29,342 nucleotides of DNA from a virus, in IMG/VR virus record IMGVR_UViG_3300029286_000190, positions 1-29,342 of that record, one strand, 5' to 3'. Below, one piece after another: positions 1,041 to 27,172 of the stretch. Within the stretch, counting starts at the first letter, position 1, and the number at the start of each line of letters is the position of its first letter. The notes under the pieces are model-generated. The model searched no databases. It was not told the origin of the DNA and worked only from the letters and a program-made list of their open reading frames with translations. Made by a program: the position numbers and the translations under genes.

Positions 1041-1090
1041 TAAATAATCCCAAGGTTTGGAAAACCTTGTAAAACACCGTTAATTATTTA
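1041..1090 (+). promoter_or_regulatory. Hairpin plus A/T outer stem in the leader of the scaffold gene
   Basis: CAAGGTTT (1051-1058) pairs with AAACCTTG (1062-1069) as an 8-bp hairpin with a GGA loop. An outer 8-bp A/T stem, TAAATAAT (1041-1048) with ATTATTTA (1083-1090), would enclose it and include the first base of the scaffold start codon. No T-tract follows, so it is not a standard terminator. The outer stem is A/T only and could be chance; the inner hairpin is firmer. Confidence 0.35.
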
Positions 1091-1659
1091 TGTCAACAGA
1101 AAAAGGCGACCAGACCGTCCAGCCAACGGAAACAAAAGAGCAACAGATCCCCTACGAGAGGTTTAAGGAAGTCGTCGAGGAAAGAAACCAAGACAGACAG
1201 ACCTTAGCCCAACTCAAAGAGGAAATTGAAACTCTTAAAACTTCTTTACCAAAAGAGCCGGAAACAGAACCGGCAGATTGGAAAGAAGTAAAAGCAAGAG
1301 CTGTCAAAGAGGCAACAACCTTGATGGAGCAAAAGCTCTTAAAAGAAAGGCATGAACAAGAACAACAGGAGCAGACCATTGAAGCAGGATTTGAAAAACT
1401 AACCGCTTTAGGGCAAAAAATCACTCCCGAAGTTCGCAAAGCCGTACTGACCGAGATGGTCAAGACCGGTGATGATGTTTATGACACCTACCTGAAAATC
1501 AAGGAAAAAGCCGATAAGTCTGAAAAGACGCAACAGCTCAAAGAAGGAACGCTCCCCGAAGGAAAGGGGACGGATAATACGCAAGTCGGGCTTACGTATA
1601 AACAGCTACACTCAATGAGCATAGATGACATTATTGCGAAGTCCGAAAATAAAAAATAA
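1090..1659 (+). CDS. Scaffolding-like capsid assembly protein
   Basis: A 189-aa protein, highly charged and mostly helical. Near residues 20-30 it reads PYERFKEVVEERN, a pattern typical of the N-terminal region of many phage scaffold proteins, followed by a predicted coiled coil (about 30-60) and a second helical region (about 70-110). The C-terminus ends YKQLHSMSIDDIIAKS. Scaffold proteins organise coat subunits into the procapsid and leave or are cleaved before maturation. The position, between portal and major capsid genes, is the classical one. It ends six bases before the capsid start, so the two are probably co-translated. No protease gene is visible between portal and capsid, so if cleavage occurs the protease lies elsewhere. 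A general coiled-coil head protein is the alternative. Confidence 0.7.
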   Translation: MSTEKGDQTVQPTETKEQQIPYERFKEVVEERNQDRQTLAQLKEEIETLKTSLPKEPETEPADWKEVKARAVKEATTLMEQKLLKERHEQEQQEQTIEAGFEKLTALGQKITPEVRKAVLTEMVKTGDDVYDTYLKIKEKADKSEKTQQLKEGTLPEGKGTDNTQVGLTYKQLHSMSIDDIIAKSENKK

Positions 1660-1665
1660 AAACTT

Positions 1666-2715
1666 ATGTCTAGAACAATCGATACAGAAACAACTTATCT
1701 GACAAGAGATGTAGTCGCCGCTAAAGTGGTTGACGGCATCCTTGACGGACAACTTATTAACTCGTTGATATTTTCAAACGCCAAGCCGTTCAGACCGAAT
1801 GGCCACAAGGTGAATATGAAATATCAGAAATCAACCGCGATGGGTTGGTATACAGGTATGGGCAACTTTGATGTTACCCAGCAAAAGAACCTGGTCCAGA
1901 TGACTTGGACACCGGCCAGCGTGTACGGATCGGTTACCCTTCCTTACTTTGAACTTTCGGTCAACAAAGCCGAACCGGTTATCCAACAGGAAAGGTTTGC
2001 AATGGAAAGTGCCGCGCAAGACTTGCTCGACAACATTGCTGACGCTTTTTACGGAAGTGGAACTTCTAACCAGTGCGATGGATTGGACAATATCGTTGAT
2101 GACGGTACTGTTGCTTCGACTTACGCCGGACTTTCCAGACCAACTTACGCCGCTTTGAACTCTGATGTGGACAGCTCTGTCGGGAGCATTACTCTCGATA
2201 CCATTGGTTCTTCATTAGATGACGCAACCGTTGGCTCTGAAAGCCCTGATATAGTTTTGACTACCACTACTTTGTGGAGAGCTTTGGAAGATTTGCTATT
2301 TCCTTCTATCACGGCCACTTATGGAGCCGCCGGTAGCAAGAGAGGAACTATCAACAGGCTTGGAGACGCAGGAGCCGGACAATCTAACACAGGCTTGGCC
2401 GGATATACAGCGATGTATTACAGGGGAGTGCCAATCGTCAAAGATGAAAAATGTTCTTCTGGCGATATTTACTACCTGAACAGAAAGAAACTGTATTGGG
2501 CTGGTTTGCCTCACTTTAAACACGGAACTGTCAACTTGGGCGGAAGCATTATTGAAGGACCGGACAATGAAGTACCTCGCAATCACGGTATTGCTTGGAC
2601 CGGAATGAAAGAGCCTATCAACCAAGACGGCGAAACTGGACAGTTTATTCTTTATGGCCAGTTGATTTGCGAAAGCCCGAGACATATGGCTAAAGATGAA
2701 GGATGCACCGCCTAG
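1666..2715 (+). CDS. Major capsid protein (HK97-fold type expected)
   Basis: A 349-aa protein immediately after the scaffold gene. The N-terminal region (MSRTIDTETTYLTRDVVAAKV, then LINSLIFSNAKPF), the middle motif on placing a defined charge-free beta sheet (WTPASVYGSVTLPYFELSVN, about 85-105) and the C-terminal ILYGQLICESPRHMA match the pattern of phage coat proteins in this genome position. Length fits a single-domain HK97-fold subunit without a large insertion. It assembles the icosahedral shell. The start ATG at 1666 has only A/T-rich sequence upstream and no ribosome binding site, although this should be one of the most highly expressed genes. Family assignment is by context and general sequence pattern, not by profile search. 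Confidence 0.8.
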   Translation: MSRTIDTETTYLTRDVVAAKVVDGILDGQLINSLIFSNAKPFRPNGHKVNMKYQKSTAMGWYTGMGNFDVTQQKNLVQMTWTPASVYGSVTLPYFELSVNKAEPVIQQERFAMESAAQDLLDNIADAFYGSGTSNQCDGLDNIVDDGTVASTYAGLSRPTYAALNSDVDSSVGSITLDTIGSSLDDATVGSESPDIVLTTTTLWRALEDLLFPSITATYGAAGSKRGTINRLGDAGAGQSNTGLAGYTAMYYRGVPIVKDEKCSSGDIYYLNRKKLYWAGLPHFKHGTVNLGGSIIEGPDNEVPRNHGIAWTGMKEPINQDGETGQFILYGQLICESPRHMAKDEGCTA

Positions 2716-2730
2716 TTTAACAATTTAACT

Positions 2731-2793
2731 ATTAACTTATCGGCGCAGTGTTATTTATAACGCTGGGGTGAAAATCCCCGCCGATAAGTTGAT
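2731..2793 (+). promoter_or_regulatory. Three-way-junction RNA candidate between capsid and 910-aa virion gene
   Basis: P1: AACTTATCGGCG (2734-2745) pairs perfectly with CGCCGATAAGTT (2779-2790), and extends to 2731/2793 through one G-U pair. P2: 2746-2753 pairs with 2758-2765 (eight pairs, one G-U; loop TTTA). P3: GGG (2766-2768) with CCC (2776-2778), plus a T-A pair closing a GAAA tetraloop. P1, P2 and P3 abut with no unpaired junction base. The structure ends 8 bases before the next ATG. No T-tract follows, so it is not a standard terminator. Function is unknown; processing site, translation element or ligand-binding RNA are all possible. Confidence 0.6.
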
Positions 2794-2801
2794 TAAGTAT
2801 T

Positions 2802-5534
2802 ATGGCATTAAAAAATATTAAGAATTATGTTTCTGCTGTTCGGCAGAACAAAGGCATACTTGCTACCGATCAAGTTCAGATCGTAACAAGAGTGGCAGTT
2901 CCAACAGACTCTGATTTGGCCAATGGCCGGTTAGTGTATGTTACTGGAACAGGTTTGCAAGCCTATATTGAAAGTGCTTGGGTAACCCTTGGCGCAGGAG
3001 GAGCAAGTTCCGCTACTTGGAACAGTTTGTATGATGGAAGCAAAACATTCACCGTTGATGAAACAACGATGACCATTGCAGGTGCGGCAGCTTTGGTGGC
3101 CGGTGATGTATTGACTATCACTGCGGCAGGAGCTGTAACCGGAGATTGTTTGCAATTCACTAATTCCGGTACAGGAAGCGATGTCAAAGGAACTTCCAGC
3201 ACTTGGAGCGTTTCCAAAGCTGGTGCGGCGGTATTCGCAAGCGTAACAGCCACGAGCATTACTTCCAGTGCTAACTTGGCCTTAAATGGTACAGGCGCAG
3301 GAACTATCGCTATCGGAGATGTTTCTACTGGTGCGGTTACCATTACCCCAGCTTTAGTTGCTGTGGCTTCGGTTACCATTACCGGTGCGGCTGATACCGA
3401 TGTCTTGACAGTTACCGATGGAGATGTGCTGATGTCTAACGGCATTTTGCAGATCACTTCTGATGACACAACCACAGGTTCAATTATAGCTGTTTCGGCG
3501 GCTACAACCGGCCATATGGTTCGGATAACAGCTGACGCTGCAACAGAGGGTTCTATCCTTTATATTGATAACGGCGGAGCTTCACTGACAACCGGTTTCT
3601 ACATCAACTGTAATGATGATGGAGTTTCCGATTTCTCGGTAGGAGCTGACGGAGCGACTGTTATAACAACTGCGGTTAATTCTACTGTTGCTTTGAGCGT
3701 TACCGGAGTACAGACCAATGAGGATATGGTCCGGTTTGCTTCCAATGGCGTAACTGCTACTGGACAGTCAACTTTGCAGGTTACTGCGGCTGGAGCGACT
3801 GCGGCTGGTTCTGCGGTGTTGTTGGTTAATCATACCGGCACTCCGGCTCATTCCACTTCTTACTTGGCGGTGTTCGATTATGAAACTGCCACGGAGCAGA
3901 CCAATGACCCAATCACTGTTGAGATCAGAAGCGGAGTATCAGTTGGTGCGGCTTTGAATATCATTGCTAAAGGCACAACGGTTACAGGTGGAGTATTGAA
4001 CTTCACGGTTGCCGAATTGACCTCTGGTGTTGGTATCAATATGACATCGTTGGCGGCCCTTGATACTGGTCAAGCGATAAATATTGCACACGCTACCTCG
4101 GTTATCGCCGACACTGGTTCGCTTATAAGAGCGACTTCAAGCGGTATCAATACCGGCGGCGCAACCAATGGAACAGTATTAGACCTTAAAACGACAGGAC
4201 AGTTGGCTGGAACGATGTGCAGGGTTGATTCAATTCAAACCACAGGCACGGTGATGAGCATTATCTCAAGCGGGATAATGACGACAACCGGAAACCTTTT
4301 GACTTTGACAGCCAATTCAGCAACGACTGCGGCTGGCTTGTTAAGGGTTAATTGTAACGGTATCTCTTCCGGTAATGGAGTGGTAATTGCTTCGTCTAGC
4401 ACGGCGGTTACTTCAGGGTCAATGTTCTTGGTCAATCACACTGGTACATCAACGACCACGGCTCTTGCTCCATTATCAGTATTCCAGACAGCGGCTACCG
4501 ACAATACTACCGTTGTGCAGATAATTGACGCGGCAGACTTAGCGGGTGGTGTTGGGTTAGATATATCTTTGGCGGCGACCACAACGGGAACCGGCATTGA
4601 CATGGGGAACTTTAGCGCGGTAACGAGTGGCAAGGGTATTTTCATCGACAACGATGTTTCTACTCTTACAAGCGGGTATTTGATCCACTTGGATTCTGCC
4701 TCTACCGCGATGACCACCGGCAGACTGTTGTTAGTTGACCATACGGGGAACGCGACCGCGACCGCTCTTTGCTCGGTTGTTGAGTTTAAGACAGCTGCCG
4801 CGGAAAATACTGTGTTGCTGTCTTTGACCGCTTCGGCGGCTTTGGCCGGGGGTGTCGGATTGGACATCTCGGTAGCGGCAATGACTACTGGCACGGCTTT
4901 GGATATTGGCGGAATGGCAGCAATCACGACTGGAAACGGTATCGTGGTGGCGGCTTCCGGCACTACCAGAACTGACGGTATGCTGTTGAGCTTGTCTTGC
5001 GCTTCAACTGCGGCTACTTCAACGGGCAGGATGTTGCTGGTTAACCACACTGGAGCAACTGGAGTTGACACTGTTATCGCGGAAGTTAAAACTGCGGCAA
5101 CCGATGAAACTGTAGCTTTCCAAGTTGTTGCTTCGGGAGCGTTAGCGGCTGGTAAAGCAGTCAATATCTCTTGCGCGGCGATGACAACTGGTACTGCTCT
5201 TAACTTTGTAAGCGCTGACGCTTTGACGACTGGTGTGATGATAAATGTTCACTCCAATTCAGCGGAAACAGACGCCAGAAGTCTTGTTCATATTCACAAT
5301 GATAATGCGGCTGCTGTTGGGACAACTCCTTTGGAAATAGTCCAGGATAGCCCGGCTACTGCTCACTTCTACGCATTTATGAAGGTAAATAGCAATAAGT
5401 TGTGGATGGGAGATGGAACGACACCTAATGCTGCTTTGGCGGCTACCACCGGAGATGTGTTATTTAATGGCGATAGCCAGAAAATTTACATTTGTACTAA
5501 TGGGGCCGGATCAGTTTGGAGTGCGACTAGCTAA
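2802..5534 (+). CDS. Large Ala/Thr/Gly-rich repetitive virion protein (fibre or head-decoration type)
   Basis: A 910-aa protein with very low Lys/Arg content, made of diverged repeats of about 40-70 residues carrying recurring phrases such as LLVNHTG, TTGTALDI, LAGGVGLDISVAA and TTGNGIVV. The alternation of small and beta-branched residues suggests a beta-solenoid or beta-helix. The N-terminus (MALKNIKNYVSAVRQNKG) is a short unique head and may be the attachment part. The C-terminal 70 residues are non-repetitive and end GDVLFNGDSQKIYICTNGAGSVW, like the tip of phage fibre proteins. It follows the capsid gene directly, so it may be a capsid-associated fibre rather than a tail fibre. Repeats differ at DNA level, so they are old or under diversifying pressure. 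Exact role unknown; a structural virion role is likely. Confidence 0.6.
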   Translation: MALKNIKNYVSAVRQNKGILATDQVQIVTRVAVPTDSDLANGRLVYVTGTGLQAYIESAWVTLGAGGASSATWNSLYDGSKTFTVDETTMTIAGAAALVAGDVLTITAAGAVTGDCLQFTNSGTGSDVKGTSSTWSVSKAGAAVFASVTATSITSSANLALNGTGAGTIAIGDVSTGAVTITPALVAVASVTITGAADTDVLTVTDGDVLMSNGILQITSDDTTTGSIIAVSAATTGHMVRITADAATEGSILYIDNGGASLTTGFYINCNDDGVSDFSVGADGATVITTAVNSTVALSVTGVQTNEDMVRFASNGVTATGQSTLQVTAAGATAAGSAVLLVNHTGTPAHSTSYLAVFDYETATEQTNDPITVEIRSGVSVGAALNIIAKGTTVTGGVLNFTVAELTSGVGINMTSLAALDTGQAINIAHATSVIADTGSLIRATSSGINTGGATNGTVLDLKTTGQLAGTMCRVDSIQTTGTVMSIISSGIMTTTGNLLTLTANSATTAAGLLRVNCNGISSGNGVVIASSSTAVTSGSMFLVNHTGTSTTTALAPLSVFQTAATDNTTVVQIIDAADLAGGVGLDISLAATTTGTGIDMGNFSAVTSGKGIFIDNDVSTLTSGYLIHLDSASTAMTTGRLLLVDHTGNATATALCSVVEFKTAAAENTVLLSLTASAALAGGVGLDISVAAMTTGTALDIGGMAAITTGNGIVVAASGTTRTDGMLLSLSCASTAATSTGRMLLVNHTGATGVDTVIAEVKTAATDETVAFQVVASGALAAGKAVNISCAAMTTGTALNFVSADALTTGVMINVHSNSAETDARSLVHIHNDNAAAVGTTPLEIVQDSPATAHFYAFMKVNSNKLWMGDGTTPNAALAATTGDVLFNGDSQKIYICTNGAGSVWSATS

Positions 5535-5545
5535 TTAGTTTTAAA

Positions 5546-5577
5546 CACAGTTGGCGGTCTGTGATTACAAAACCGCC
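5546..5577 (+). promoter_or_regulatory. Compact H-type pseudoknot candidate
   Basis: Stem 1: CACAG (5546-5550) with CTGTG (5559-5563), loop TTGGCGGT. Stem 2: loop bases GGCGGT (5553-5558) pair with ACCGCC (5572-5577). The connecting segments are TT, zero bases, and A-rich ATTACAAA, which is the spacing of compact H-type pseudoknots with an A-rich third loop. The alternative is a simple hairpin using only stem 2 with a 13-base loop. It lies 44 bases before the 5622 start, too far to cover it directly. No T-tract follows. Confidence 0.45.
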
Positions 5578-5621
5578 GTTAATACCCGAACCAAAATTAA
5601 TAATGGCGAGGGAAAAGAAGA

Positions 5622-6341
5622 ATGGCTTATCAAGAAACAACGAGGCAGACTATTTTCAACACAAAGTTGACTGCCAATGACTCTACGGCTAAAGAAGCTC
5701 TCGGAGTTATTAGAGAATTAGAGGACGGACGGGCGTTTCGCTATGTCAAGATGACCGGCGGAACTTCTGCTTTGGGGCAGGTTAATACCATCGGGGCTAA
5801 GGTAGCGGTTACAAATGCCACTTCCGCTTCCGGAACCGGTCCGGACGGAGCGACAACCACTATCATTACCGATAGCGATGCCGCTTGGACAGCTGCCGCT
5901 TATGTCGGTTGGTATTATGTAACCCTTACTGCGATGACAGGTTCAACAGACCCGATCAAGATCGTGGGGAATACTGCTACCACTTTGACGCTTGAGAGAA
6001 GCATTACTACCGCTTTAACTTCGGCTGGAACTGACGATGGCGAGATAATCGCTCCTTTGGGAGTGGCTTTGATTGCCGCCGCCAATAATCTGGTCCAACC
6101 AGTTAGCGGTGTCGGTATCGGTACTTTGACCGAGAATTACTATGGCTGGCTTCAAATCAGAGGCTATGCCGGAGTGATCGGCGATACCCTTACGGAAGGT
6201 TATGCGATCTGTCCTGGAGGAAATGCTGCCGGACAGGCTTTAATTGCAACAACCAATAACTTTGAAAATGTTATCGGTTACTGCGTGGCAGCTGCGGGAA
6301 ATAATGAATTGAACTTCTGCAACTTAACCATAGCGGCTTAG
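5622..6341 (+). CDS. Virion structural protein, probable capsid-associated
   Basis: A 239-aa protein of small polar and hydrophobic residues with few charges, beta-rich by appearance. It starts MAYQETTRQTIFN, then has an Ala/Thr/Gly-rich middle (about 60-145) containing DSDAAWTAAAYVGWYY and TATTLTLERSI, resembling a small inserted beta barrel of the kind also seen in the protein at 11929. The C-terminal third (YYGWLQIRGYAGVIGDTLTEG) recurs in phage head proteins. A GAGGG stretch about 13-17 bases upstream is the only Shine-Dalgarno-like candidate I found in the window, and its spacing is long. Likely a decoration or other high-copy virion component; the exact role cannot be read from the sequence. 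Confidence 0.6.
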   Translation: MAYQETTRQTIFNTKLTANDSTAKEALGVIRELEDGRAFRYVKMTGGTSALGQVNTIGAKVAVTNATSASGTGPDGATTTIITDSDAAWTAAAYVGWYYVTLTAMTGSTDPIKIVGNTATTLTLERSITTALTSAGTDDGEIIAPLGVALIAAANNLVQPVSGVGIGTLTENYYGWLQIRGYAGVIGDTLTEGYAICPGGNAAGQALIATTNNFENVIGYCVAAAGNNELNFCNLTIAA

Positions 6342-6344
6342 AAA

Positions 6345-6426
6345 ATAACCCGTTCTTGTTTGGGGCGGGTTATGGGGTTTGACGGACGCAAGTGGGGGAA
6401 AGGTTATCTCTTTCCCCCAGCCCCAA
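6345..6426 (+). promoter_or_regulatory. Structured leader before HNH gene: hairpin with loop-downstream pairing
   Basis: Stem 1: ATAACCCG (6345-6352) with CGGGTTAT (6366-6373). The 3' half of its loop, TTGGGG (6360-6365), can pair with CCCCAA (6421-6426), directly abutting stem 1 in a pseudoknot geometry. Between lies a strong 10-bp hairpin (6393-6402 with 6410-6419, loop GTTATCT). GGGG at 6374-6377 competes for the same CCCC, which would give a nested structure instead. The shared 9-mer TTGATTAAG lies downstream (6431-6439) before the ATG, as it does before the 2802 start. Confidence 0.45.
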
Positions 6427-6449
6427 TAATTTGATTAAGATAACTAATT

Positions 6450-6983
6450 ATGAGAATATTTACAGACGAACATAAGCAAAAACTTAGAGAACATCAACAT
6501 AATAAAGGAAAACATTTATCGGACGAAGTAAGAAGGAAAATTAGCGAAGCTAAAAAAGGTAAAAAATTTACTGAAGAGCATAAAAAGAAATTAAAAGATT
6601 TAATACCTTGGAACAAAGGTTTGAGAGTAATTTATACGAAGGAAGCAAAAGAAAAGATGAGATTGAGTGGTTTAAAAAATTGGAAAAATAATTTTAATAA
6701 TTTTAAAGGAAAAGAAAGTCCATATTGGAAAGGAGATAACGCTTCTTATGTTACTCAGCATAAATGGGTTTATGACAATAAAGGAAGACCTAAAGTTTGT
6801 GAGCATTGTGGAATTACTTGCGAAGAAAAAAAGTTAAATTGGGCAAATATAGACCACGAATATAGAAGAAATGTCGATGACTATATTTCGTTATGTATAT
6901 TTTGCCATAGAAAACACGACAAAAAAAATGATAATAAGATAAATAAATTTTATGGTAGAAACACCAAAATATGGAAACAGTAA
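6450..6983 (+). CDS. Free-standing homing endonuclease, NUMOD3 repeats plus HNH domain
   Basis: A 177-aa protein. Residues 1-75 contain NUMOD3-type DNA-binding repeats (FTDEHKQKLREHQ, LSDEVRRKISEAKKGKKF, TKEAKEKMRLSG). The HNH nuclease region follows: C117-x2-C120, WANIDHEYRR (131-140) with D135/H136, and C149-x2-C152-H153. Such proteins cut DNA of phages lacking the insertion and so spread their own gene. The gene is far more A/T-rich than its neighbours (for example 12 G/C in the 60 bases from 6661), which supports recent entry. Its last 13 bases overlap the start of the next gene, so it has become part of the structural operon. It is related to the antisense gene at 14244-14750. Confidence 0.88.
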   Translation: MRIFTDEHKQKLREHQHNKGKHLSDEVRRKISEAKKGKKFTEEHKKKLKDLIPWNKGLRVIYTKEAKEKMRLSGLKNWKNNFNNFKGKESPYWKGDNASYVTQHKWVYDNKGRPKVCEHCGITCEEKKLNWANIDHEYRRNVDDYISLCIFCHRKHDKKNDNKINKFYGRNTKIWKQ

Positions 6984-7408
6984 ATAAACCGATTGAGTTT
7001 AAGAAACTTTATAACAACACCCCTGAAGATTTTACTTTCTTTTGGGATAAGGCTCCTTACACGATTAAGGCCGGGGAAGCAAAAGAATTTGTTGATTATA
7101 TTGCTTGCCACGGTGCGAAAAAACTGGCCGATAAATATGCCAAGACCGCCAACAAAGACGAAAAGAAAGTCTTGATGATGGCCTTTTTGGAGAATGTGGA
7201 TTTTGATGTAATGGCTAGGAAAATGAACATTGACCTTGCCAAGATCAGGGCAGATGTTCTGACCAAGGAAAAAGAGAAAGCCAGAGTCATAAACTTGGAA
7301 TCGCAGGTGGCTGATTTAAACAGAAAGCTCGAGGCGGTGTTGGCCAAGGTAGAAACCAAAGAGCCGGAAAAGAAACCGGAAAATAAGAAACCTAAAGAAG
7401 ATAAATAA
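6971..7408 (+). CDS. Phage structural-region protein with N-terminal 'PYTIKAGEAKEF' domain
   Basis: A 145-aa protein. Residues 10-60 (TPEDFTFFWDKAPYTIKAGEAKEFVDYIACHGAKKLADK) show a pattern I know from uncharacterised phage proteins encoded among head and tail genes, where a beta hairpin is followed by a 'his-Gly-Ala-Lys-x-Leu-Ala' helix. The C-terminal half is a coiled coil (ESQVADLNRKLEAVLAKVE) ending in a Lys/Glu/Pro tail. The ATG at 6971 overlaps the end of the HNH gene by 13 bases; no other in-frame start keeps the N-terminal domain intact. Function is unknown; the context suggests a minor virion or assembly protein. Confidence 0.6.
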   Translation: METVNKPIEFKKLYNNTPEDFTFFWDKAPYTIKAGEAKEFVDYIACHGAKKLADKYAKTANKDEKKVLMMAFLENVDFDVMARKMNIDLAKIRADVLTKEKEKARVINLESQVADLNRKLEAVLAKVETKEPEKKPENKKPKEDK

Positions 7409-7410
7409 AT

Positions 7411-7758: not shown

Positions 7759-7759
7759 T

Positions 7760-8623: not shown

Positions 8624-8627
8624 AAAA

Positions 8628-10796
8628 ATGAGTGATATAAAAGACCAAAAAGTACAAATTTGCGACATAGACTCCACAGTGATCGGGCTGAATGTTGTTC
8701 AGCTTGGTGCTGTTGGAGCAATGCCAGTAAGATTGGTTGATTCGGTTGGCGCGGGAATAGACACTTTGCCTATAAGCGGAAGCATTACGGCTACGGTTGA
8801 TACTACCGGCCTTGCTTTGGCCGCTAACCAGTTGCCTGACGGACACAATGTTACTGTTGATAACGCTTCCATAGCCGTTACTGGCACATTCTGGCAAGCC
8901 ACTCAACCAGTTAGTGGGACTTTCTGGCAAGCAACACAACCTGTATCAGGAACTTTTTGGCAAGCTACCCAGCCGGTAAGCATAGCCGGAACAGTAACCG
9001 TGGATTGTAATTCTTCAAATGTAACGGTGGATAACGCTTCAATAGCGGTAACAGGGACATTTTGGCAGGCGACACAGCCCATTTCCATAGCTTCAACTGT
9101 GGCGACAATCATCAAAGACGCAAACGGCGACTCTTGTATGGACGAGGGAAACAACGCTTTGAATGTCAATGTGGTGGCCGGAGGTGCAGGTAACGGAGCT
9201 ATTTTGGACGGGGCAGACGCGGCAATTAAGGCAACTGTTCTTGACTATGCCAATTCCAATCCTTTAGCGGTGCGCCTGACCAATGCTGATGGAGATTATG
9301 TGGCCGCCGGAGCAGGAACGCAATACACCGAGGGGGACACGGACGCTACCATTACAGGAACGGCTATTTTACACGAGATCGCCGCAAACACTCTTGCGAC
9401 AATATCCACTACCAATCCTTTGCCTATTTCAGACAATGGAGGAGCGATAACCGTTGATGGAACAGTTGCCGTTACGAACGCCGACATTACTTCTTGCAAA
9501 ACAGCTTTGGAACTTTTAGACAATTCGGTGGACGGCAATTACTTGAATGTTAATTTGAACGCCGCAGGAACAGACCTTTCAATGAACGCAGGCGTGCTGA
9601 CGGCGCAGACATTAAGAGTAACGATTGCTACCGATGATGAGGTTAATAATTTACTTGGCACGATAGACGCTGACACTTCAAGCATTGCCACGGATGCTTC
9701 TACGATCGCTGGAGATACCACTTCCATTGATGGAAAGATAACCGCTTGCAACACGGGAGCCGTGGTTATTTCATCGGGAACAATAACGACCATCACTAAT
9801 GCCGTGGCCGTTACTAATGCGGACATAACGTCTTGTAAGACAGCCTTAGAGCTTTTAGATAATTCCGTTGATGGGGCTTATCTTAATGTTAATTGCAACA
9901 TCGCCGGAACTGATTTTGTCGGCGGTGCAGGTGCTGTGGCCGCAGGAGTGCAAAGGGTTACTCTGGCTAGCGATGACCCAGCCGTAACAGATTTGGCCGC
10001 CATAGAGGTTTTGCTTACAGGAATTGATGTTGATACTGACGCAATTAAAACTGCAACACAACTTATAGACAACGCCATTTCTGGTGTAGGATTTAATATA
10101 ACTCAATTTGCTGGTGCCGCTGTTCCTATTGGAGCTGGAACTGAAGCCGCCGCATTAAGAGTTACTGTTGCCACAGACTCAACTGGCGTGCTTTCGATAG
10201 ATGACAATGGTGGTGCTTTGACTGTTGATGGTACTGTAACCGCTAACTTATCTGCTACCGATAATGCGGTTTTAGATAGCATACAGACCGCTGTAGAGGT
10301 GATTGATAACTCTGTTTATGTTGATGACGCTGACTGGACAGCAGACACTTCCAGCCATACTTTAGCTGGGGCGGTTACACAGGTTCTTGCTACTGTCAAT
10401 ACTGACGGCGATACAACTCCGCTTACTACCAATGCTTTCAGAGAATTGAGAACCGCCATACCTGAAAGCGATTTGGCCACGGCAGGAACAGCACACGTCA
10501 AGAAATACTACACAAACGCCGGAGCTGTTACTGACGGCATTATTTGGAGTCCAGCCGCAGGTAAGAGGTGGTATGTAACCGATATTTATATCCAAGTATC
10601 GGCAGCGGCTACTGTTACTTTAGAGGACGACTTGGCAGGTGGAGATAGTGCAATATGGAAAGCAGAACTGGCTGCCAATGGCGGTTGGTCTCATAGTTTT
10701 AATACTCCACTTTTCTCTTCAGAAGATGCGGCGGATTTAATAATTACTACCAGTGCCGGTAATGTATACGTAACCGTTACGGGTTGGGAACTGTAA
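8628..10796 (+). CDS. Tail/fibre protein with FWQATQPV repeats
   Basis: A 722-aa beta-rich protein. GTFWQATQPVS is repeated in tandem three times (starts 8883, 8916, 8949; period 33 bases) and once more at 9054. Such FWQATQPV repeats are common in phage tail-associated proteins. A second, longer duplication of about 55 residues begins AVTNADITSCKTALELLDNSVDG, near residues 282 and 395. The last 130 residues (KKYYTNAGAVTDGIIWSPAAGKRWYVTDIYIQVSAAATVTLEDD) look like a folded C-terminal beta domain. Copies of the repeats differ by many silent changes, so selection acts on the protein. Probably a virion surface or tail-associated fibre; the receptor is unknown. Confidence 0.6.
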   Translation: MSDIKDQKVQICDIDSTVIGLNVVQLGAVGAMPVRLVDSVGAGIDTLPISGSITATVDTTGLALAANQLPDGHNVTVDNASIAVTGTFWQATQPVSGTFWQATQPVSGTFWQATQPVSIAGTVTVDCNSSNVTVDNASIAVTGTFWQATQPISIASTVATIIKDANGDSCMDEGNNALNVNVVAGGAGNGAILDGADAAIKATVLDYANSNPLAVRLTNADGDYVAAGAGTQYTEGDTDATITGTAILHEIAANTLATISTTNPLPISDNGGAITVDGTVAVTNADITSCKTALELLDNSVDGNYLNVNLNAAGTDLSMNAGVLTAQTLRVTIATDDEVNNLLGTIDADTSSIATDASTIAGDTTSIDGKITACNTGAVVISSGTITTITNAVAVTNADITSCKTALELLDNSVDGAYLNVNCNIAGTDFVGGAGAVAAGVQRVTLASDDPAVTDLAAIEVLLTGIDVDTDAIKTATQLIDNAISGVGFNITQFAGAAVPIGAGTEAAALRVTVATDSTGVLSIDDNGGALTVDGTVTANLSATDNAVLDSIQTAVEVIDNSVYVDDADWTADTSSHTLAGAVTQVLATVNTDGDTTPLTTNAFRELRTAIPESDLATAGTAHVKKYYTNAGAVTDGIIWSPAAGKRWYVTDIYIQVSAAATVTLEDDLAGGDSAIWKAELAANGGWSHSFNTPLFSSEDAADLIITTSAGNVYVTVTGWEL
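8847..9083 (+). repeat. Coding tandem repeats encoding FWQATQPV units
   Basis: Three 33-base units start at 8883, 8916 and 8949, and a fourth copy starts at 9054. The flanking phrase NVTVDNASIAVTG precedes the first (from 8847) and the fourth (from 9018), so a larger block was duplicated. Third codon positions differ in most codons between copies (for example CAAGCCACTCAACCA versus CAGGCGACACAGCCC), so the repeats are conserved as protein, not DNA. Confidence 0.8.
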
Positions 10797-10810
10797 ATTT
10801 AATATAATAT

Positions 10811-11926: not shown

Positions 11927-11928
11927 AT

Positions 11929-12846: not shown

Positions 12847-12847
12847 A

Positions 12848-14272
12848 ATGGCAATTTTGTTAATCAATAATTTCAATGGTGGATTGAGTAGTGGTGAAAA
12901 GATAGGGTTATCTGGGAGTTTTCGTTTTGGATCGGGGATAAATATCCATTCAAATCCTGATGTTTTAAAGGTTTCTCCTAAAAGCACTAAAGATAGCGGG
13001 ACAGTCGTGGTTGATCTTCCAATGTTTTCAACGACTAATACAGTAAATAGCAACATTTACTTTTTAGGAGATGCTGGAAAATTATATTGTAAATCTTCCG
13101 GAGTTTATTCTGTCCTTAATACTTATACTAATGCTCAAGGAATGGGATTTTTTACGGGAACGAATAAAGTTGTTTTTTGTTCAGGAGATAAAGAATATAA
13201 AATTGATCCTTCTACAAATTCAATTTCTACCGGTCGGACACTTGATTCAGCTGATTTTCATCCGGTTGAAGCGTTTTTGGATAAAGTATTTGTAGGAAAT
13301 GGGCGTGAACTTATAAGCACAGATGGATCAGCGATAGATTATAATAGCTCAACTGTTGGTGGCGGATTGACAGTAGAATTTGGGCAAAAAATCAAATGTT
13401 TAAAGAACATCGGTGATTGGTTGTTTATTGGTTGCGTGTCTGATAATTCTTCTTTGGCCGCTTATTATCTATGGGACGGAGTTTCGGAAGATGCAAATTA
13501 TCTAAAAAAATTAAAAGGAGAAGATGGTGTTAATTCCTGTGATGTTTCCGATGATGGAACAGTAATAATTTCAGCAGGAAAAAAAGGACATTTATATCAA
13601 CTTACTGGACTTGATACGACATTAAACAATATTAAAACAATTCCTCTTATAGAAATTGATAAAACTATTGAAGTTTATCCTGGAGCAATGACTAATTATC
13701 AAGGCAGGTTAATGGTGGGATTATCTGACGGAACTTCCCTGACCGCCGAGAGAGGAGTTTATAGTTGGGCTTCTCATTCTAATCAATATTCTAAGACTTT
13801 AAATTTAGAATACAAAATTTCTACTGGAACAACGACAGGAACGACTACTCAAGTAGGACTTGTTTATTCGGCTAATACTACCGATCTGTATATGGGTTGG
13901 GCTGACAACGGAGTATACGGCATAGACAAGATTGACGGAAGTGGGGTGCAAGGTACAGCTGTCTATCAATCGCTAATACACGATGCGGGGAAGCCTTTTA
14001 AGAGGAAACATTACAAGAATTTTAAGATTACTTTAGCGAAAGCATTAGCAAGCGGAGAAACGATTGAGTTGTCTTATAAAAAAGATAGGGGAAGTTGGGC
14101 AAGCATCGGAACAATGGACTTTGCGGTCGACGGAGCCATTTTAGAAAAGAATTTCAAACCAGATATAAAGGCAAGGGAGTTAGAAATTCAGTTGGAATTT
14201 ACGAATACTGGAAGCACAGGAGCAGAGATTGATTCTATTGCTATTATTTATGAGGAGGAAGATTTGATTTAA
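12848..14272 (+). CDS. Tail nozzle/DNA-stabilisation-like beta-propeller protein
   Basis: A 474-aa protein starting at the ATG just after the preceding stop (MAILLINNFNGGLSSGEKI). An in-frame ATG at 12809 would add 13 residues that overlap the previous gene; I rejected it because the N-terminus 'INNFNGGL' is where homologous proteins begin. The body consists of repeated beta-blade phrases (GKLYCKSSGVYSVL, FFTGTNKVVFCSGDKEYKID, DGTVIISAGKKGHLYQLTG, ADNGVYGIDKIDG), as expected for the propeller of phage nozzle proteins (T7 gp12 or P22 gp10 role). It would extend the tail tube below the adaptor. Codon use is more A/T-rich than the adaptor gene. Its last 29 bases overlap the antisense HNH gene tail to tail. 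Confidence 0.6.
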   Translation: MAILLINNFNGGLSSGEKIGLSGSFRFGSGINIHSNPDVLKVSPKSTKDSGTVVVDLPMFSTTNTVNSNIYFLGDAGKLYCKSSGVYSVLNTYTNAQGMGFFTGTNKVVFCSGDKEYKIDPSTNSISTGRTLDSADFHPVEAFLDKVFVGNGRELISTDGSAIDYNSSTVGGGLTVEFGQKIKCLKNIGDWLFIGCVSDNSSLAAYYLWDGVSEDANYLKKLKGEDGVNSCDVSDDGTVIISAGKKGHLYQLTGLDTTLNNIKTIPLIEIDKTIEVYPGAMTNYQGRLMVGLSDGTSLTAERGVYSWASHSNQYSKTLNLEYKISTGTTTGTTTQVGLVYSANTTDLYMGWADNGVYGIDKIDGSGVQGTAVYQSLIHDAGKPFKRKHYKNFKITLAKALASGETIELSYKKDRGSWASIGTMDFAVDGAILEKNFKPDIKARELEIQLEFTNTGSTGAEIDSIAIIYEEEDLI

Positions 14273-14750
14273 TGTCATATTGTCTATGGCATTTACCACA
14301 TAATCTTAACCAATCATTTAAATCTCGTTTGTACTCACCACTTTTATTTGCCCAACCAATTCTATGCCCAGTAAAATTTTTACCACAATGTTCACAAGTT
14401 GTAGGCTTCCCGAGATAACGATTAACCCAATTATGCAAACCGACATAACCTACATCATCACCTTTCCAGTTTTGATTTTTTTCACCAGCAAATTGAGGTC
14501 TTTTCTTTCCTTTATTACAAGAAGTCTTGCCTTTCATCCACAATCCGAATCCTTTATTTTTCGCTATTTCTTTCATTTTTTTCTTCCATTCTTCAGTATG
14601 TTCCCACAATCCTTTTTTCCCTTTGTTCCAAGGAATATGTCTAAGATGAGAATTTCTCAATTTCTCACAATGCAAAGATGATAATTTTTTACCAGTCCAA
14701 TATGATTCACTACCTTTTACAAATTGACCTTTAGAATTTCTTTTAATCAT
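14244..14750 (-). CDS. Antisense NUMOD3/HNH homing endonuclease
   Basis: The only leftward gene in the window, 168 aa. The N-terminal half has NUMOD3-like helices and WNKGKKG/WMKGKT-type turns. The nuclease half has C119-x2-C122, WANKSGEYKRDLNDW (133-147) and C151-x2-C154-H155. Compared with the HNH gene at 6450, the residues aligned with D135/H136 are Ser-Gly here; I recall SG variants elsewhere in this family, so this may not mean inactivity. A free-standing homing endonuclease inserted between the nozzle and fibre genes is the best reading. It ends inside the 3' end of the nozzle gene (29-base overlap). A terminator-like hairpin lies just before its start, and its promoter is unclear. Confidence 0.85.
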   Translation of the reverse strand: MIKRNSKGQFVKGSESYWTGKKLSSLHCEKLRNSHLRHIPWNKGKKGLWEHTEEWKKKMKEIAKNKGFGLWMKGKTSCNKGKKRPQFAGEKNQNWKGDDVGYVGLHNWVNRYLGKPTTCEHCGKNFTGHRIGWANKSGEYKRDLNDWLRLCGKCHRQYDIKSNLPPHK

Positions 14751-14759
14751 AAATTTAAT

Positions 14760-14792
14760 AAAAACCCCTCTTACCTTGGCGGGTTAGAGGGG
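14760..14792 (-). terminator. Terminator-like hairpin with T5 on the minus strand, upstream of the antisense HNH gene
   Basis: On the minus strand CCCCTCT (14792-14786) pairs with AGAGGGG (14771-14765), with further pairing inside, followed by TTTTT (14764-14760) and ATT. This is a standard intrinsic terminator shape, but it lies 10 bases before the HNH start, not after the gene. It would stop leftward transcription before HNH, or act as an attenuator. On the + strand the same hairpin is followed by an A-run and is not a terminator. Confidence 0.5.
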
Positions 14793-14825
14793 CAAAAAGA
14801 ATTATATCATATTTTCCCGCCAAGG
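14765..14825 (+). promoter_or_regulatory. Pseudoknot or switching-structure candidate in the tail-fibre leader
   Basis: Stem 1: CCCCTCT (14765-14771) with AGAGGGG (14786-14792). The loop segment CCTTGGCGGG (14774-14783) is perfectly complementary to CCCGCCAAGG (14816-14825). The two pairings can coexist as an H-type pseudoknot or act as alternatives. The linker (14793-14815) is A/T-rich. The structure ends 39 bases before the fibre ATG. Because inverted repeats work on both strands, it also lies in the leader of the leftward HNH gene. Confidence 0.5.
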
Positions 14826-14864
14826 ATAATACATAAATAATAACACAAGTTTAAACGAAAAACA

Positions 14865-17645: not shown

Positions 17646-17661
17646 GAAATAATTAAAAATT

Positions 17662-19797: not shown

Positions 19798-19800
19798 TCT

Positions 19801-23340: not shown

Positions 23341-23343
23341 TGT

Positions 23344-23616: not shown

Positions 23617-23621
23617 AACAC

Positions 23622-23737
23622 GGCAGGGGGCTTGTAATGGAAGCCAGGACGCTTTTTAAAGCATATATTGGGCTTTGCCCGCAATAATACGCTGGCCACT
23701 TTCCACCAACAAACTGTGATCCGGCCCGGACCTTGCC
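23622..23737 (+). promoter_or_regulatory. Multibranched RNA candidate before the endolysin gene
   Basis: Closing stem GGCAGGG (23622-23628) with CCTTGCC (23731-23737; one G-U). Inside, TGGAA (23638-23642) pairs with TTCCA (23701-23705) and GCCAG (23643-23647) with CTGGC (23692-23696). This stem encloses two hairpins, GCTT...AAGC (23651-23662) and GGGC-TTT-GCCC (23670-23680, extended by TATT/AATA across a bulge). The 143-base gap has no reading frame of note and no T-tract. It is not a tRNA: I found no T-loop sequence or clover pattern. Function unknown. Confidence 0.45.
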
Positions 23738-23759
23738 ATCATAATTAGTAAATAAATTT

Positions 23760-24326: not shown

Positions 24327-24349
24327 TTTGAGTTAAAAGTTTTTAAATT

Positions 24350-24592
24350 ATGGATATTATAAACATTGCGATATTAGGCACGGCTGCTTCCTTTTTAATG
24401 GAAGTGATACAAAACAAGTGGGGGACAGGGACGATCTTGTCCAAAGCAATAATAACCGCCCTCTCGCTGGTTATAGGAACATTCTATTTTTTTGCTTCCC
24501 AAACCGACTGGTGGGTTAGCTTTTTAGGGGTGCTGGCGACCGCTTCGACAGTGTATGCTTTCTTCTTTAAGAAAGAACCTGTGCAAAACTAA
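24350..24592 (+). CDS. Holin-like small membrane protein
   Basis: An 80-aa protein with three predicted membrane spans: about 3-20 (IINIAILGTAASFLMEVI), 29-50 (ILSKAIITALSLVIGTFYFF) and 54-73 (WWVSFLGVLATASTVYAFFF), ending with a short charged tail. Length, topology and position right after the M23 peptidase suit a holin that lets the lysin reach the wall. It is the last gene of the late block; an intrinsic terminator starts 20 bases after its stop. The start ATG has only A/T-rich sequence before it. Confidence 0.65.
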   Translation: MDIINIAILGTAASFLMEVIQNKWGTGTILSKAIITALSLVIGTFYFFASQTDWWVSFLGVLATASTVYAFFFKKEPVQN

Positions 24593-24611
24593 TTAGAAAT
24601 TTCTGCTTGAC

Positions 24612-24640
24612 AAAGGCCCGCTATAATTGGCGGGCCTTTT
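24612..24640 (+). terminator. Intrinsic terminator after the late operon
   Basis: AAAGGCCCGC (24612-24621) pairs over 10 bp with GCGGGCCTTT (24630-24639), loop TATAATTG, running into TTTT and TTTGCTT. The A-run on the 5' side makes it potentially bidirectional. It lies 20 bases after the holin-like stop. TTGACA (24607-24612) and TATAAT (24622-24627) also occur here but only 9 bases apart, so not as one promoter. Confidence 0.8.
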
Positions 24641-24661
24641 GCTTGTGGACAGACTAAGTTA

Positions 24662-24689
24662 TTGACAAGGTTATGGATAAGAATATAAT
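24662..24689 (+). promoter_or_regulatory. Consensus sigma-70 promoter, near-leaderless
   Basis: TTGACA (24662-24667) and TATAAT (24684-24689) with a 16-base spacer; both hexamers are perfect. The expected transcription start, about 7 bases after the -10, falls on or next to the ATG at 24696, so the HNH transcript would be leaderless or nearly so. It directly follows the late terminator and is placed to drive the recombination/replication genes to the right. Confidence 0.75.
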
Positions 24690-24695
24690 AAAGCT

Positions 24696-25058
24696 ATGCC
24701 GAATGCAGATCAATTCAAAAACAGGGAAGAATACAATAAATATTTCCGAAAATACAGAGAAAGAAACAGGGAAAAGATGAGGGATTATAACAGAGAATAT
24801 AATCGTAAATATCGCAAAGAACACGGATACTGGAACGAAATAAATTGGAAGAAAAAAAATATAGTCAAGGTGAATGTTAATAGAATTTTGCAAAATGCCA
24901 TTAAAAGCGGAAAAATAAAGAGAAAACCTTGCGTATTTTGCGGAAAAGAAAAAACAGTTGCTCATCACATAGATTACAGAAAACCATTGAAAGTAATTTT
25001 TCTCTGCCACGCCTGCCATTATAAAATCCACCACAAGCGAAAAAAAGGCACTTCCTAG
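24696..25058 (+). CDS. HNH endonuclease, small type
   Basis: A 120-aa basic protein. The N-terminal 45 residues are a repeated Arg/Tyr/Asn-rich helix (YFRKYRERNREKMRDYNREYNRKYRKEH), probably DNA-binding. The HNH part has C79-x2-C82, HHID (90-93) and C104-x2-C107-H108. It differs from the NUMOD3-type enzymes at 6450 and 14244, so it was acquired separately. It may be a homing endonuclease or have a role in packaging or replication, but no terminase is nearby. It is the first gene after the strong promoter, so it may be expressed early. Confidence 0.85.
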   Translation: MPNADQFKNREEYNKYFRKYRERNREKMRDYNREYNRKYRKEHGYWNEINWKKKNIVKVNVNRILQNAIKSGKIKRKPCVFCGKEKTVAHHIDYRKPLKVIFLCHACHYKIHHKRKKGTS

Positions 25059-25108
25059 GCGTTCTACCCAGCAAAAGGTAATAATTACCGTTTCAAAATA
25101 TAAACGCC
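25058..25108 (+). promoter_or_regulatory. Weak stem-loop candidate after HNH gene
   Basis: GGCGTT (25058-25063) can pair with AACGCC (25103-25108), enclosing hairpin GGTAA-TAA-TTACC (25077-25089). A competing hairpin GCCC/GGGC (25106-25118) shares bases. The rest of the gap up to 25160 is A-rich and I see nothing further in it. Confidence 0.25.
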
Positions 25109-25160
25109 CCACAAGGGCAATAAAGGCCGAATAATAACAAATCGTAAAATTAACAAAACA

Positions 25161-25301
25161 ATGTTCATCACACGCAGACAAGTAGAGGAAGAATTGAGGA
25201 GCGTAAAAGCGCAGAGAAACATTTTATTCATCTGCACGGTCCTCTTAATAATCAGCGTTCTAACTCTTGGCCAAGGAATAGAAAAACTGGCCGGGTTCTA
25301 A
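25161..25301 (+). CDS. Small single-span membrane protein
   Basis: A 46-aa frame starting ATG at 25161 and ending TAA at 25299-25301, just before the next gene (start 25305). It has a charged N-terminal helix (MFITRRQVEEELRSVKAQRN) and one transmembrane segment (ILFICTVLLIISVLTLG, about 21-37). The reading frame fits the packed + strand arrangement and the gap would otherwise be empty. Function unknown; small membrane proteins in early phage regions often act in superinfection exclusion or host takeover, but nothing here shows it. Confidence 0.5.
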   Translation: MFITRRQVEEELRSVKAQRNILFICTVLLIISVLTLGQGIEKLAGF

Positions 25302-25304
25302 AAA

Positions 25305-25505
25305 ATGAAAATCTACCGAGTATCAATCACCGGCGACAAGTATCCTACCGAATACACCGTCCAAGCCTCCGGGTGGGGAACGGCAGCGAACAGGGCGATC
25401 AAGGAATGGAAGAAAAGATTTAAGGGAAGCAAGACGGACAAATTGGTAGTTAAACTTTTCAAAGGTGGAGAATTATTAGTCGATAACAACAAAGAAAATG
25501 ACTAA
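25305..25505 (+). CDS. Small hypothetical protein
   Basis: A 66-aa, basic, probably beta-alpha-beta protein (MKIYRVSITGDKYPTEYTVQ, then a helix WGTAANRAIKEWKKRFKG, then strand KLVVKLFKGGELLV). The layout resembles small double-stranded RNA- or nucleic acid-binding folds, but no diagnostic motif is present. It starts three bases after the previous stop and overlaps the next small gene by 8 bases. I do not recognise the family. Confidence 0.55.
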   Translation: MKIYRVSITGDKYPTEYTVQASGWGTAANRAIKEWKKRFKGSKTDKLVVKLFKGGELLVDNNKEND

Positions 25506-25659
25506 AAAAGAATTTGTCGAAATGTTCGGCGAAGACCCGGAGGACATTCTTGGACCAGACTGGAAAAATCTGGCTGACGAATATGCCGAGGAAGCTGAAC
25601 AAGGAGAGCAAGCCAAAGAGCAAGCGTTGGAAGAAGCTCAGAGGCCAAGAATAATTTAA
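25498..25659 (+). CDS. Very small acidic protein
   Basis: A 53-aa frame starting ATG at 25498 inside the end of the preceding gene (8-base overlap) and ending TAA at 25657-25659. The protein is strongly acidic (KEFVEMFGEDPEDILGPDW, then an Ala/Glu/Gln-rich helix AEEAEQGEQAKEQALEEAQ). Tight overlap, regular codon use and absence of any other frame here support it as a gene. Small acidic phage proteins can be DNA mimics or protein inhibitors, but that is speculation. Function unknown. Confidence 0.5.
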   Translation: MTKKEFVEMFGEDPEDILGPDWKNLADEYAEEAEQGEQAKEQALEEAQRPRII

Positions 25660-25667
25660 TGGTGATC

Positions 25668-25741
25668 TTTCAATGGGTGCGGTATTGACGGACGGGGGAG
25701 CTGATCAGCATTTCCGATCCTAAGATACTGCGCCATTGAAA
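25668..25741 (+). promoter_or_regulatory. Long imperfect stem before the ERF gene
   Basis: TTTCAATGG (25668-25676) pairs with CCATTGAAA (25733-25741), then after a small internal loop GCGGTAT (25679-25685) pairs with ATACTGC (25725-25731; one G-U). The enclosed 39 bases hold CGGA/TCCG and the palindrome GCTGATCAGC (25700-25709). The base of the stem lies 12 bases before the ATG at 25754. No T-tract. A regulatory RNA or a DNA cruciform/protein site are both possible. Confidence 0.5.
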
Positions 25742-25753
25742 CCTAATAAAAAA

Positions 25754-26530
25754 ATGACAGGGAAAAAATATCCAGTTTCGAAGGTTGAACCTTCAAAAGA
25801 AATAATCAAAACGGATCAGAGCGAAACAGCAAATTTCATATCCCAAGCAATCGCAAACAATTTGCCGGTGGAGACAATGGAAAAACTGTTTTCACTTCAC
25901 GAGAAAGTAAAAGCGGAAAAAGCCAGAGAAGCGTATGTTATGGCCTTAGCTATTTTTCAAGGCCAATGCCCGGTAGTCCAGAAGTTGAAAAAAGTAATGA
26001 ACAAAGACGGCCGGACAGTCCGTTATCAATACGCCCCACTCGATTCGATTGTTGAACAGGTGAAGGGATTATTGGCAAATAACGGATTATCTTACAGGTG
26101 GGAAGTAGAAAACAAACCAGGGATCATCAAAGCAACAGTAATTATAACTCATAAGCTGGGCCATTCGGAATTAAGCTCATTTGAGATCCCGATTGACACT
26201 GAGGGCTATATGACCGCGCCGCAGAAAGTCGCTTCGGCCCTGACCTTTGCCAAGAGATACACCTTTTGCAACGCCTTGGGGATCTCAACCGGCGATGAGG
26301 ACACCGACGCAACCGATGTGAATAAGGAGCCGACTGCAAAATCTCCTAAGGCAAAGATCGTGCTGGCTTTAAGAACCTTGGGACACGAACCGAAAGGAAC
26401 TGAAGAATACGCGGCAATTATTCTCAAGATGACACAGTTGCCGCTCGAGAACAAAAACCTGCCGGGGATAGTCGCCCGGCTGGAAACCTTAGTCGATGAG
26501 AAACAGCAATATGAAAACTCTAACATTTGA
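25754..26530 (+). CDS. erf: ERF family single-strand DNA annealing protein
   Basis: A 258-aa protein from the ATG at 25754; a TTG at 25736 would add six residues but overlaps the stem upstream, so the ATG is preferred. The ERF domain covers about 40-190: FSLHEKVKAEKAREAYVMALAIFQGQCP, YQYAPLDSIVEQVKGLLANNGLSY, KLGHSELSSFEIPI and the QKVASALTFAKRYTFCNALGIS-type core, with a GDEDTDA segment after it. ERF proteins anneal complementary single strands in phage recombination and end-joining. It is paired with the YqaJ-type exonuclease that overlaps its 3' end, the standard SynExo two-gene recombination unit. The C-terminal helical part is less conserved. Confidence 0.88.
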   Translation: MTGKKYPVSKVEPSKEIIKTDQSETANFISQAIANNLPVETMEKLFSLHEKVKAEKAREAYVMALAIFQGQCPVVQKLKKVMNKDGRTVRYQYAPLDSIVEQVKGLLANNGLSYRWEVENKPGIIKATVIITHKLGHSELSSFEIPIDTEGYMTAPQKVASALTFAKRYTFCNALGISTGDEDTDATDVNKEPTAKSPKAKIVLALRTLGHEPKGTEEYAAIILKMTQLPLENKNLPGIVARLETLVDEKQQYENSNI

Positions 26531-27107
26531 AACAGAGCAGGAATGGCTGGACGCAAGGCGCGGCAAGATCACCGGCACAAGGCTGAAAGACCTTATCTCC
26601 CGTAACGGAGCCAAGAAGATCGGCTATTACGAGATCATTGCCGAGAAGATAGCGATACCGGCCAGCGATGAGAATGTGATGGACCGAGGCCATAGGCTTG
26701 AAACTGACGCTCTCGAAAGGTTCGCCAAAGAAACAGGTAAGAAAGTTGATGGCTCATTGCTGATGTGGACCAGAGATGATGACGACAATATTGCTATCTC
26801 TCCCGATGGCGTTATAGGCAAGACGGAAGCGGTGGAATGTAAATGCCTTTCATCGGCCCGGCACATCGAAGCCTTGCTGACCAAAGAGGTTCCTTCCGAA
26901 TACGAATATCAGGTTATCCAGTATTTCATTGTCAACGATAAGCTGAAAACCCTGTATTTCGTCTTTTACGACCCGCGAATGCCAAAAGACTTTTTCTACC
27001 TGACGGTCAATCGAAAAGATGTTCAGAGCAAAGTGGAAGAATACTTGGAGCTGGAAAAGAAAGTGCTTGCGGAGATCGAGGAGATCGAAAAGCAATTGAC
27101 ATTTTAA
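26511..27107 (+). CDS. YqaJ-type (lambda exonuclease-like) recombinase nuclease
   Basis: A 198-aa protein. Catalytic features of the PD-(D/E)XK YqaJ fold are visible: EWLDARRGKITGTRL (11-25), RGHRLETDAL (59-68, E64), SPDG (97-100, D99), AVECK (107-111, E109-x-K111) and YQVIQY (133-138). The enzyme digests one strand from double-strand ends and loads the ERF annealing protein on the exposed strand. It overlaps the ERF gene end by 20 bases; an alternative ATG at 26496 would add five residues. Size is typical. A GC-rich hairpin follows the stop. Confidence 0.88.
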   Translation: MKTLTFETEQEWLDARRGKITGTRLKDLISRNGAKKIGYYEIIAEKIAIPASDENVMDRGHRLETDALERFAKETGKKVDGSLLMWTRDDDDNIAISPDGVIGKTEAVECKCLSSARHIEALLTKEVPSEYEYQVIQYFIVNDKLKTLYFVFYDPRMPKDFFYLTVNRKDVQSKVEEYLELEKKVLAEIEEIEKQLTF

Positions 27108-27113
27108 CAATCA

Positions 27114-27144
27114 CTCGGGCCGCTGACTTGTGCGGCGGCCCGGG
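27114..27144 (+). promoter_or_regulatory. GC-rich hairpin between exonuclease and replication initiator
   Basis: CGGGCCGC (27116-27123) pairs with GCGGCCCG (27135-27142), extended by two pairs (27114-27115/27143-27144, one G-U), loop of 11 bases. It follows the exonuclease stop by six bases but no T-tract follows (GATAACC), so it is not a canonical terminator; it may be an RNA 3'-end protector or processing site. Confidence 0.45.
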
Positions 27145-27172
27145 ATAACCAAAAGTTTAATAGGCAAAACTG

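Follow-up and report, generated by a model that had tools for sequence, protein, structure and literature searches.

The stretch of DNA analysed here, IMG/VR virus record IMGVR_UViG_3300029286_000190 (positions 1 to 29,342; these 29,342 nucleotides (nt) as a whole are called the window), comes from the genome of a tailed phage, and nearly all of its genes lie on the plus strand. It contains portal, scaffold-like, and major capsid genes, followed by gene 2802 and gene 5622, and, further downstream, genes for an LPD38 protein, an M23-type peptidase, an ERF protein, a YqaJ exonuclease, and an HTH_36 protein (Table 1). Several gaps between these genes are predicted to hold structured RNA, and two covarying leader RNA families occur at the homologous place, upstream of gene 5622 homologues, in distant relatives. 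The protein encoded by gene 5622 matched no named family, one of its homologues gave a weak match to a virion structural PHROG, and the gene is regarded as head-associated mainly by its place behind the capsid gene.

Folding energies of the ten gaps of at least 40 nt were compared with those of dinucleotide shuffles, and 250 coding windows of matched length served as the control. The mean z-score was -3.07 in the gaps vs. -0.23 in the coding windows (Mann-Whitney p = 7e-6; p = 3e-5 with the terminator gap excluded), and z < -2 was reached by 6 of the 10 gaps compared to 7.6% of the coding controls. A scan for H-type pseudoknots, scored against 200 shuffles per gap, added the gap before gene 5622 and brought the structured gaps to 7 of 10. 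An initial annotation had proposed stable folds in nearly every gap of 55 bases or more; the gaps do fold below their shuffles overall, but "nearly every" is too strong. Six of the eight elements that it listed hold, judged by nested-fold z-scores and the pseudoknot scan against shuffles (5546-5577 only as an H-type pseudoknot), whereas those at 1041-1090 and 23622-23737 do not exceed chance. Its list also left out two long gaps, 24593-24695, which holds a terminator and a promoter, and 25059-25160 (102 nt), which is unstructured (z about -1). The lack of folds in gaps under 30 nt, which it had recorded as well, is close to trivial. The gap before the scaffold-like gene is also weak in the related contigs L002, L003, L006, and L004. 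No relatives were found through peptidase 23760 or gene 11929, by which the gap 23617-23759 and the pseudoknot in 14751-14864, respectively, were to be tested for covariation.

Table 1. Genes of the window and predicted RNA elements in its gaps (z-scores and counts are relative to shuffled sequence)
Feature	Position	Strand	Identification or predicted helices	Element vs. shuffles	Enclosing gap
Portal gene	45
Scaffold-like gene	start 1090		by place
Major capsid gene	1666-2715		PHROG 9953
Gene 2802	start 2802
Gene 5622	start 5622
LPD38 protein gene	19801
M23-type peptidase gene	23760
ERF gene	start ATG 25754
YqaJ exonuclease gene	26511
HTH_36 protein gene	27173
Weak hairpin before scaffold-like gene, unsupported	1041-1089	+		z -1.6, p 0.067
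Three-way junction, capsid gene/gene 2802	2734-2790	+	P1 2734-2745/2779-2790, P2 2746-2753/2758-2765, P3 2766-2768/2776-2778	z -5.9 to -6.6, 0/300 shuffles	2716-2801, z about -6
H-type pseudoknot before gene 5622	5546-5578	+	S1 5546-5550/5559-5563, S2 5552-5558/5572-5578	0/200 shuffles as good	5535-5621, nested fold non-significant (z -1.1), pseudoknot beats 200/200
Hairpin directly before gene 5622, loop AAATTAATAA	5585-5612	+	5585-5587, 5591-5593/5604-5606, 5610-5612	loop kept, stems differ in L003, L006
Two stacked hairpins (trailer) behind gene 5622, before inserted HNH gene	6345-6426	+		z -3.7 to -3.9	6342-6449, z about -3.8
H-type pseudoknot before gene 14865	14765-14825	+	S1 14765-14771/14786-14792, S2 14774-14783/14816-14825	0/200 shuffles as good	14751-14864, nested z about -2.5, pseudoknot beats 200/200
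Listed element, no structure above chance	23622-23737	+		z -0.4; pseudoknot 188/200
Long interrupted stem before ERF gene	25669-25741	+		z -5.2 to -5.6	25660-25756, z about -5
G+C-rich hairpin between YqaJ and HTH_36 genes	27114-27144	+		z -4.3 to -4.5	27108-27172, z about -4.4

At least three kinds of structure are represented among the supported elements (three-way junctions, H-type pseudoknots, and long hairpins). A single family for all of them was rejected, as they have no common sequence and differ in topology, and with two of the eight listed elements failing, the one coherent layer that had been envisaged is not supported. The common design ascribed to them, a stem that ends shortly before a start codon, proved loose: the start codon follows the last main stem after about 11 to 44 nt, and after 0 only at the unsupported 1031-1089. 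On the other hand, Shine-Dalgarno sites are indeed lacking (core tetramer at -20 to -5 in only 2 of 30 leaders), and A-rich stretches precede the start codons. T-tracts are likewise absent from the plus strand of the listed sites. No plus-strand terminator-like match was found there, and intrinsic termination was rejected for these elements, the only such match being at 24593-24640 (AAAGGCCCGC...GCGGGCCTTTT). In its gap (24593-24695) this terminator is followed by a sigma-70 promoter with 12/12 consensus positions that lies only a few bases before ATG 24696, and the transcript is probably leaderless. Rfam 15 gave no match in the window at the gathering threshold, and a scan of 4227 Rfam families that included relaxed thresholds found nothing above chance in the window and the tested relatives except one tRNA. 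A self-cleaving ribozyme or riboswitch was also considered and found no support in Rfam; the virion-gene context and the absence of an Rfam riboswitch match argue against a metabolite riboswitch.

Structure is present on the minus strand of the gaps as well (mean z -2.4), as would be expected if the repeats acted as DNA, either as protein-binding palindromes or as insertion scars of homing endonucleases, with the RNA fold as a by-product; HNH genes adjoin two of the gaps (6450-6983 and 14244-14750). Such a DNA-level origin is very improbable, however, because the plus strand gives the better fold in 6 of 10 gaps, the five strongest among them, and because the pseudoknots, the G-U pairs, and, in relatives, the covarying stems with conserved single-stranded loops point to RNA.

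In homologous gaps of close relatives, the folds stay at fixed positions while their sequences turn over. Behind the capsid gene, L003 contained a three-way junction (z -4.8) unrelated in sequence to that of the window. Its closing helix is rich in A+T, and a G+C helix and two hairpins make up the rest. A similar structure could be drawn by eye in L002 and L006, which have the short motifs GGGGAATGAAATAT and AGAACCC in common, and stable folds were present in L015 (z -5.6), L004 (z -7.0), and L005 (z -5.3). Before gene 5622, an alignment read by eye indicated that L003 retains the pseudoknot helix GGCGGT/ACCGCC and that the other helix, S1, is compensated, CAG/CTG in the window being replaced by CTG/CAG. 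The hairpin that follows the pseudoknot has the loop (A/G)AAT(T/C)AATAA in the window, L003, and L006. Stems or hairpins of other sequence were found at the same place in the ERF gap of L017 (z -3.7) and in its gap behind YqaJ (z -4.5).

An alignment of gene 5622 homologues yielded 80 loci, mostly at 27-37% identity, and a second alignment yielded 80 more; many IMG/VR loci are near-duplicates, and all counts use distinct sequences only. Two leader RNA families were identified upstream of these homologues, in L027, L045, L069, L093, L119, and others. Class I folds as a three-way junction and lies in the gap from the major capsid gene (identified by hmmsearch) to the gene 5622 homologue, and its P2 hairpin carries the invariant loop AAGCCAAT; P1 and P3 were drawn sequence by sequence with a small script. 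Across 19 sequences, 100% of the P2 cells were paired, and 43 cells were changed on both sides compared to 13 in shuffles, while pairing in slid registers never exceeded 58%. Class II consists of an H-type pseudoknot and then a hairpin, with TGTAA ahead of the second stem. In 29 sequences, 92% of its cells were paired, 18 of 22 pairs were changed on both sides, and 123 double-changed cells were counted vs. 36 in shuffles (0/500), with at most 40% of cells paired in slid registers. The shuffle control for covariation does not take out relatedness, although the slid-register control retains it. Covariance models of both classes found a single copy in each contig, at this place and nowhere else.

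Rfam 15 recognized no family in the leaders at 24 class I or II loci. The description of the structured gaps as novel is therefore fair for these two families, which are absent from Rfam, but not for structured gaps as such, considering that 65% of T7 gaps reach z < -2. Compensatory change in homologous gaps is likewise strong in the two families, but the window matches neither of their models: model R2 of class II, the class marked by TGTAA, found nothing in the window at E <= 1, and model R3 of class I, the class with the loop AAGCCAAT, found nothing there either. The window has in common with class II the order of pseudoknot and hairpin and the gene downstream, and with class I the junction topology and the place behind the capsid gene. 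It thus agrees with both families in place and topology and belongs to neither, because neither covariance model finds it.

Structure also recurs behind gene 5622, where the hairpins vary freely in sequence (L003 z -2.6, L006 z -6.0, and L015 z -6.1). The 33 non-redundant gaps at this position had a mean z of -3.6, and 91% of them (30/33) were below -2 compared to 17% of controls (p 3e-16). These trailer hairpins might be terminators or attenuators that need no long T-tract in these hosts and grade the output of the late operon in the manner of T7 Tphi, which sits directly behind the capsid gene. Plain T-tract terminators do occur at the same place in L010, L024, L034, and L047, which suggests that the trailers may serve in the formation or protection of messenger RNA (mRNA) 3' ends. 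Nevertheless, a T-run of five or more follows the stem in only 3 of the 33 gaps; the window and the 30 other relatives have none, although the phage possesses an ordinary terminator at 24593-24640, and the leaders before gene 5622 have a different form. Termination as the general role is therefore unlikely.

The analysis shows the predicted folds, their conserved positions, and the covariation of the leader families at the homologous place; the structures may plausibly have a part in translation, in processing, or in stability. The reading that we consider fairly probable is that the gaps hold several kinds of intercistronic cis-acting RNA, with leaders that would gate translation and trailers that would set mRNA ends. 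Head genes are normally highly expressed, and the structured gaps probably tune the output of the neighbouring virion proteins. In the proposed mechanism, the leaders comprise the pseudoknot and hairpin before gene 5622, the three-way junction between the capsid gene and gene 2802, and the long stems that precede the ERF and HTH_36 genes. Each leader would most likely set the translation of the cistron that it precedes, either by offering a folded platform that the ribosome or a phage protein recognizes, or by restraining the initiation region. The trailer hairpins behind gene 5622 would most likely stop exonucleases or serve as a point of processing or partial termination; exonuclease resistance like that of Xrn1-resistant RNAs was among the possible roles considered.

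For the leaders, the relatives provide an indication of how this might occur. In those relatives that use Shine-Dalgarno sites, accessibility of the site was 0.33 beside class I leaders vs. 0.42 in the other genes of the same contigs (p 0.03), and 0.30 vs. 0.47 beside class II leaders (p 0.002); the difference is a modest one and comes from folds that ignored pseudoknots. A simple rule served to choose the gene starts in relatives. Leaders like that of L093 carry an upstream CCTCCTT that can pair with the Shine-Dalgarno sequence AAGGAGG. The less accessible sites, together with the invariant loops of both classes, favour control at the level of translation, possibly by way of a bound protein. 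Several observations weigh against the proposed mechanism. The unpaired fraction of start regions of the window is 0.58 for genes behind gaps vs. 0.575 for other genes, so direct occlusion is not apparent, and start codon occlusion was rejected for the window. Covariation of its own elements is limited to a pair or three close relatives, because the window matches neither family model. Furthermore, the folds behind the capsid gene in L002 (z -1.7) and L006 (z -1.4) are non-significant by energy, and the ERF gap of L018 has no structure. A more specific proposal, by analogy with MS2 coat protein or T4 gp32, is that RNA operators set the ratio of head proteins in a wide group of tailed phages: a virion protein, the gene 5622 product or another, would bind the leader and shut off translation, also where Shine-Dalgarno sites are lacking as in the window. 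We regard both this autoregulation and the identity of its binder as tentative and rather doubtful.

Several features of the window and its relatives stand apart from these elements. The IMG/VR contig L001 (7962 bases) is identical to the start of the window and continues further 5'. Four related phages (L001 1797-2020, L003 4294-4395, L009 6382-6563, and L002 304-448) have a sigma-70 promoter, a leader, and a terminator-like hairpin ahead of the portal gene; the T-run of the hairpin runs into the portal ATG or ends just before it, and the hairpin loop of L002 is too long for the terminator scan. This arrangement resembles a leader that controls the late operon by attenuation or antitermination. 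The HNH-type genes of the window, the second of which is on the minus strand, lie in or beside structured gaps, and L006 harbored an HNH-type gene (9567-10202), related to the first of them, between the capsid gene and gene 2802. The capsid gene of L015 is split (5242-5778 and 6548-7156) by an intron- or intein-like insertion containing an open reading frame (ORF) within the span 5242-7156, for which no Rfam intron match was found. The last, open ORF of the window (29163-29342) carries TACATCYACTCCCAAGCCAAGCTGGAC and CTCAAGTCCGTAGGCG as direct repeats, noted by reading the sequence. By capsid and portal, the nearest named phages are TM7 phage DolZOral124_53_65 and cthkR962 (26-29%), which makes Patescibacteria a possible host; the capsid alignment had no match in genome contigs, and terminase hits there were mixed and distant.

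To our knowledge, beyond a few model tailed phages it is poorly known how the ratio of virion proteins is set from long messages, and translational control by a pseudoknot is known for few viruses. The two families of covarying RNA described here, which lie beside a head-associated gene and are common in metagenomic phages, are open to direct synthesis. The window further suggests that the same places stay structured without Shine-Dalgarno sites, which bears on the choice of start codons in such hosts.

Structured intercistronic gaps are a known feature of phages, since T7 gaps are about as structured as those of the window (mean z -2.4, 65% at z < -2, compared to 18% in the TM7 phage and 17% in cthkR962). 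In T7 this structure is explained by processing sites, promoters, and a terminator; host RNase III cuts the intercistronic hairpins, and the folded ends protect the messages. The window resembles T7 in having folded RNA in many gaps of a long message without T-tracts, and all of its elements could be such processing or stability sites with no part in translational regulation; the hairpins behind gene 5622 vary freely and lack T-tracts, as a barrier or cleavage site would. This explanation is rather unlikely, however, as a plain duplex barrier would not need the letters that classes I and II keep invariant in loops and junctions (AAGCCAAT; TGTAA), the leaders of both classes adjoin less accessible Shine-Dalgarno sites, and T7 sites are hairpins, not the pseudoknots and three-way junctions with conserved loops found here. 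A mixture of leaders and trailers remains the preferred reading.

T7 Tphi, as annotated, is likewise a stable hairpin that immediately follows the capsid gene region, but it has a T-tract. Mu-gpT-DE RNA, Rfam family RF03012, is named in PMC7657543. It sits behind the capsid gene of Mu-type phages and so is a structured RNA directly 3' of the major capsid gene, as in the window; neither the window nor the tested relatives match it. The leader pseudoknot of gene 32 in T4, T2, and RB69 is an autogenous translational operator (PMC3014915). Both it and the element at 5546-5578, where no shuffle of 200 did as well, are H-type pseudoknots in a phage leader with two stacked stems, tens of bases before the start. 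In contrast, the gene 32 product is a single-stranded DNA-binding protein that binds its own pseudoknot, whereas the gene 5622 product is head-associated and its binding putative, and class II adds a second hairpin domain and the conserved TGTAA loop. New relative to these systems are the leader families with their covariation and constant association with a single head-associated gene.

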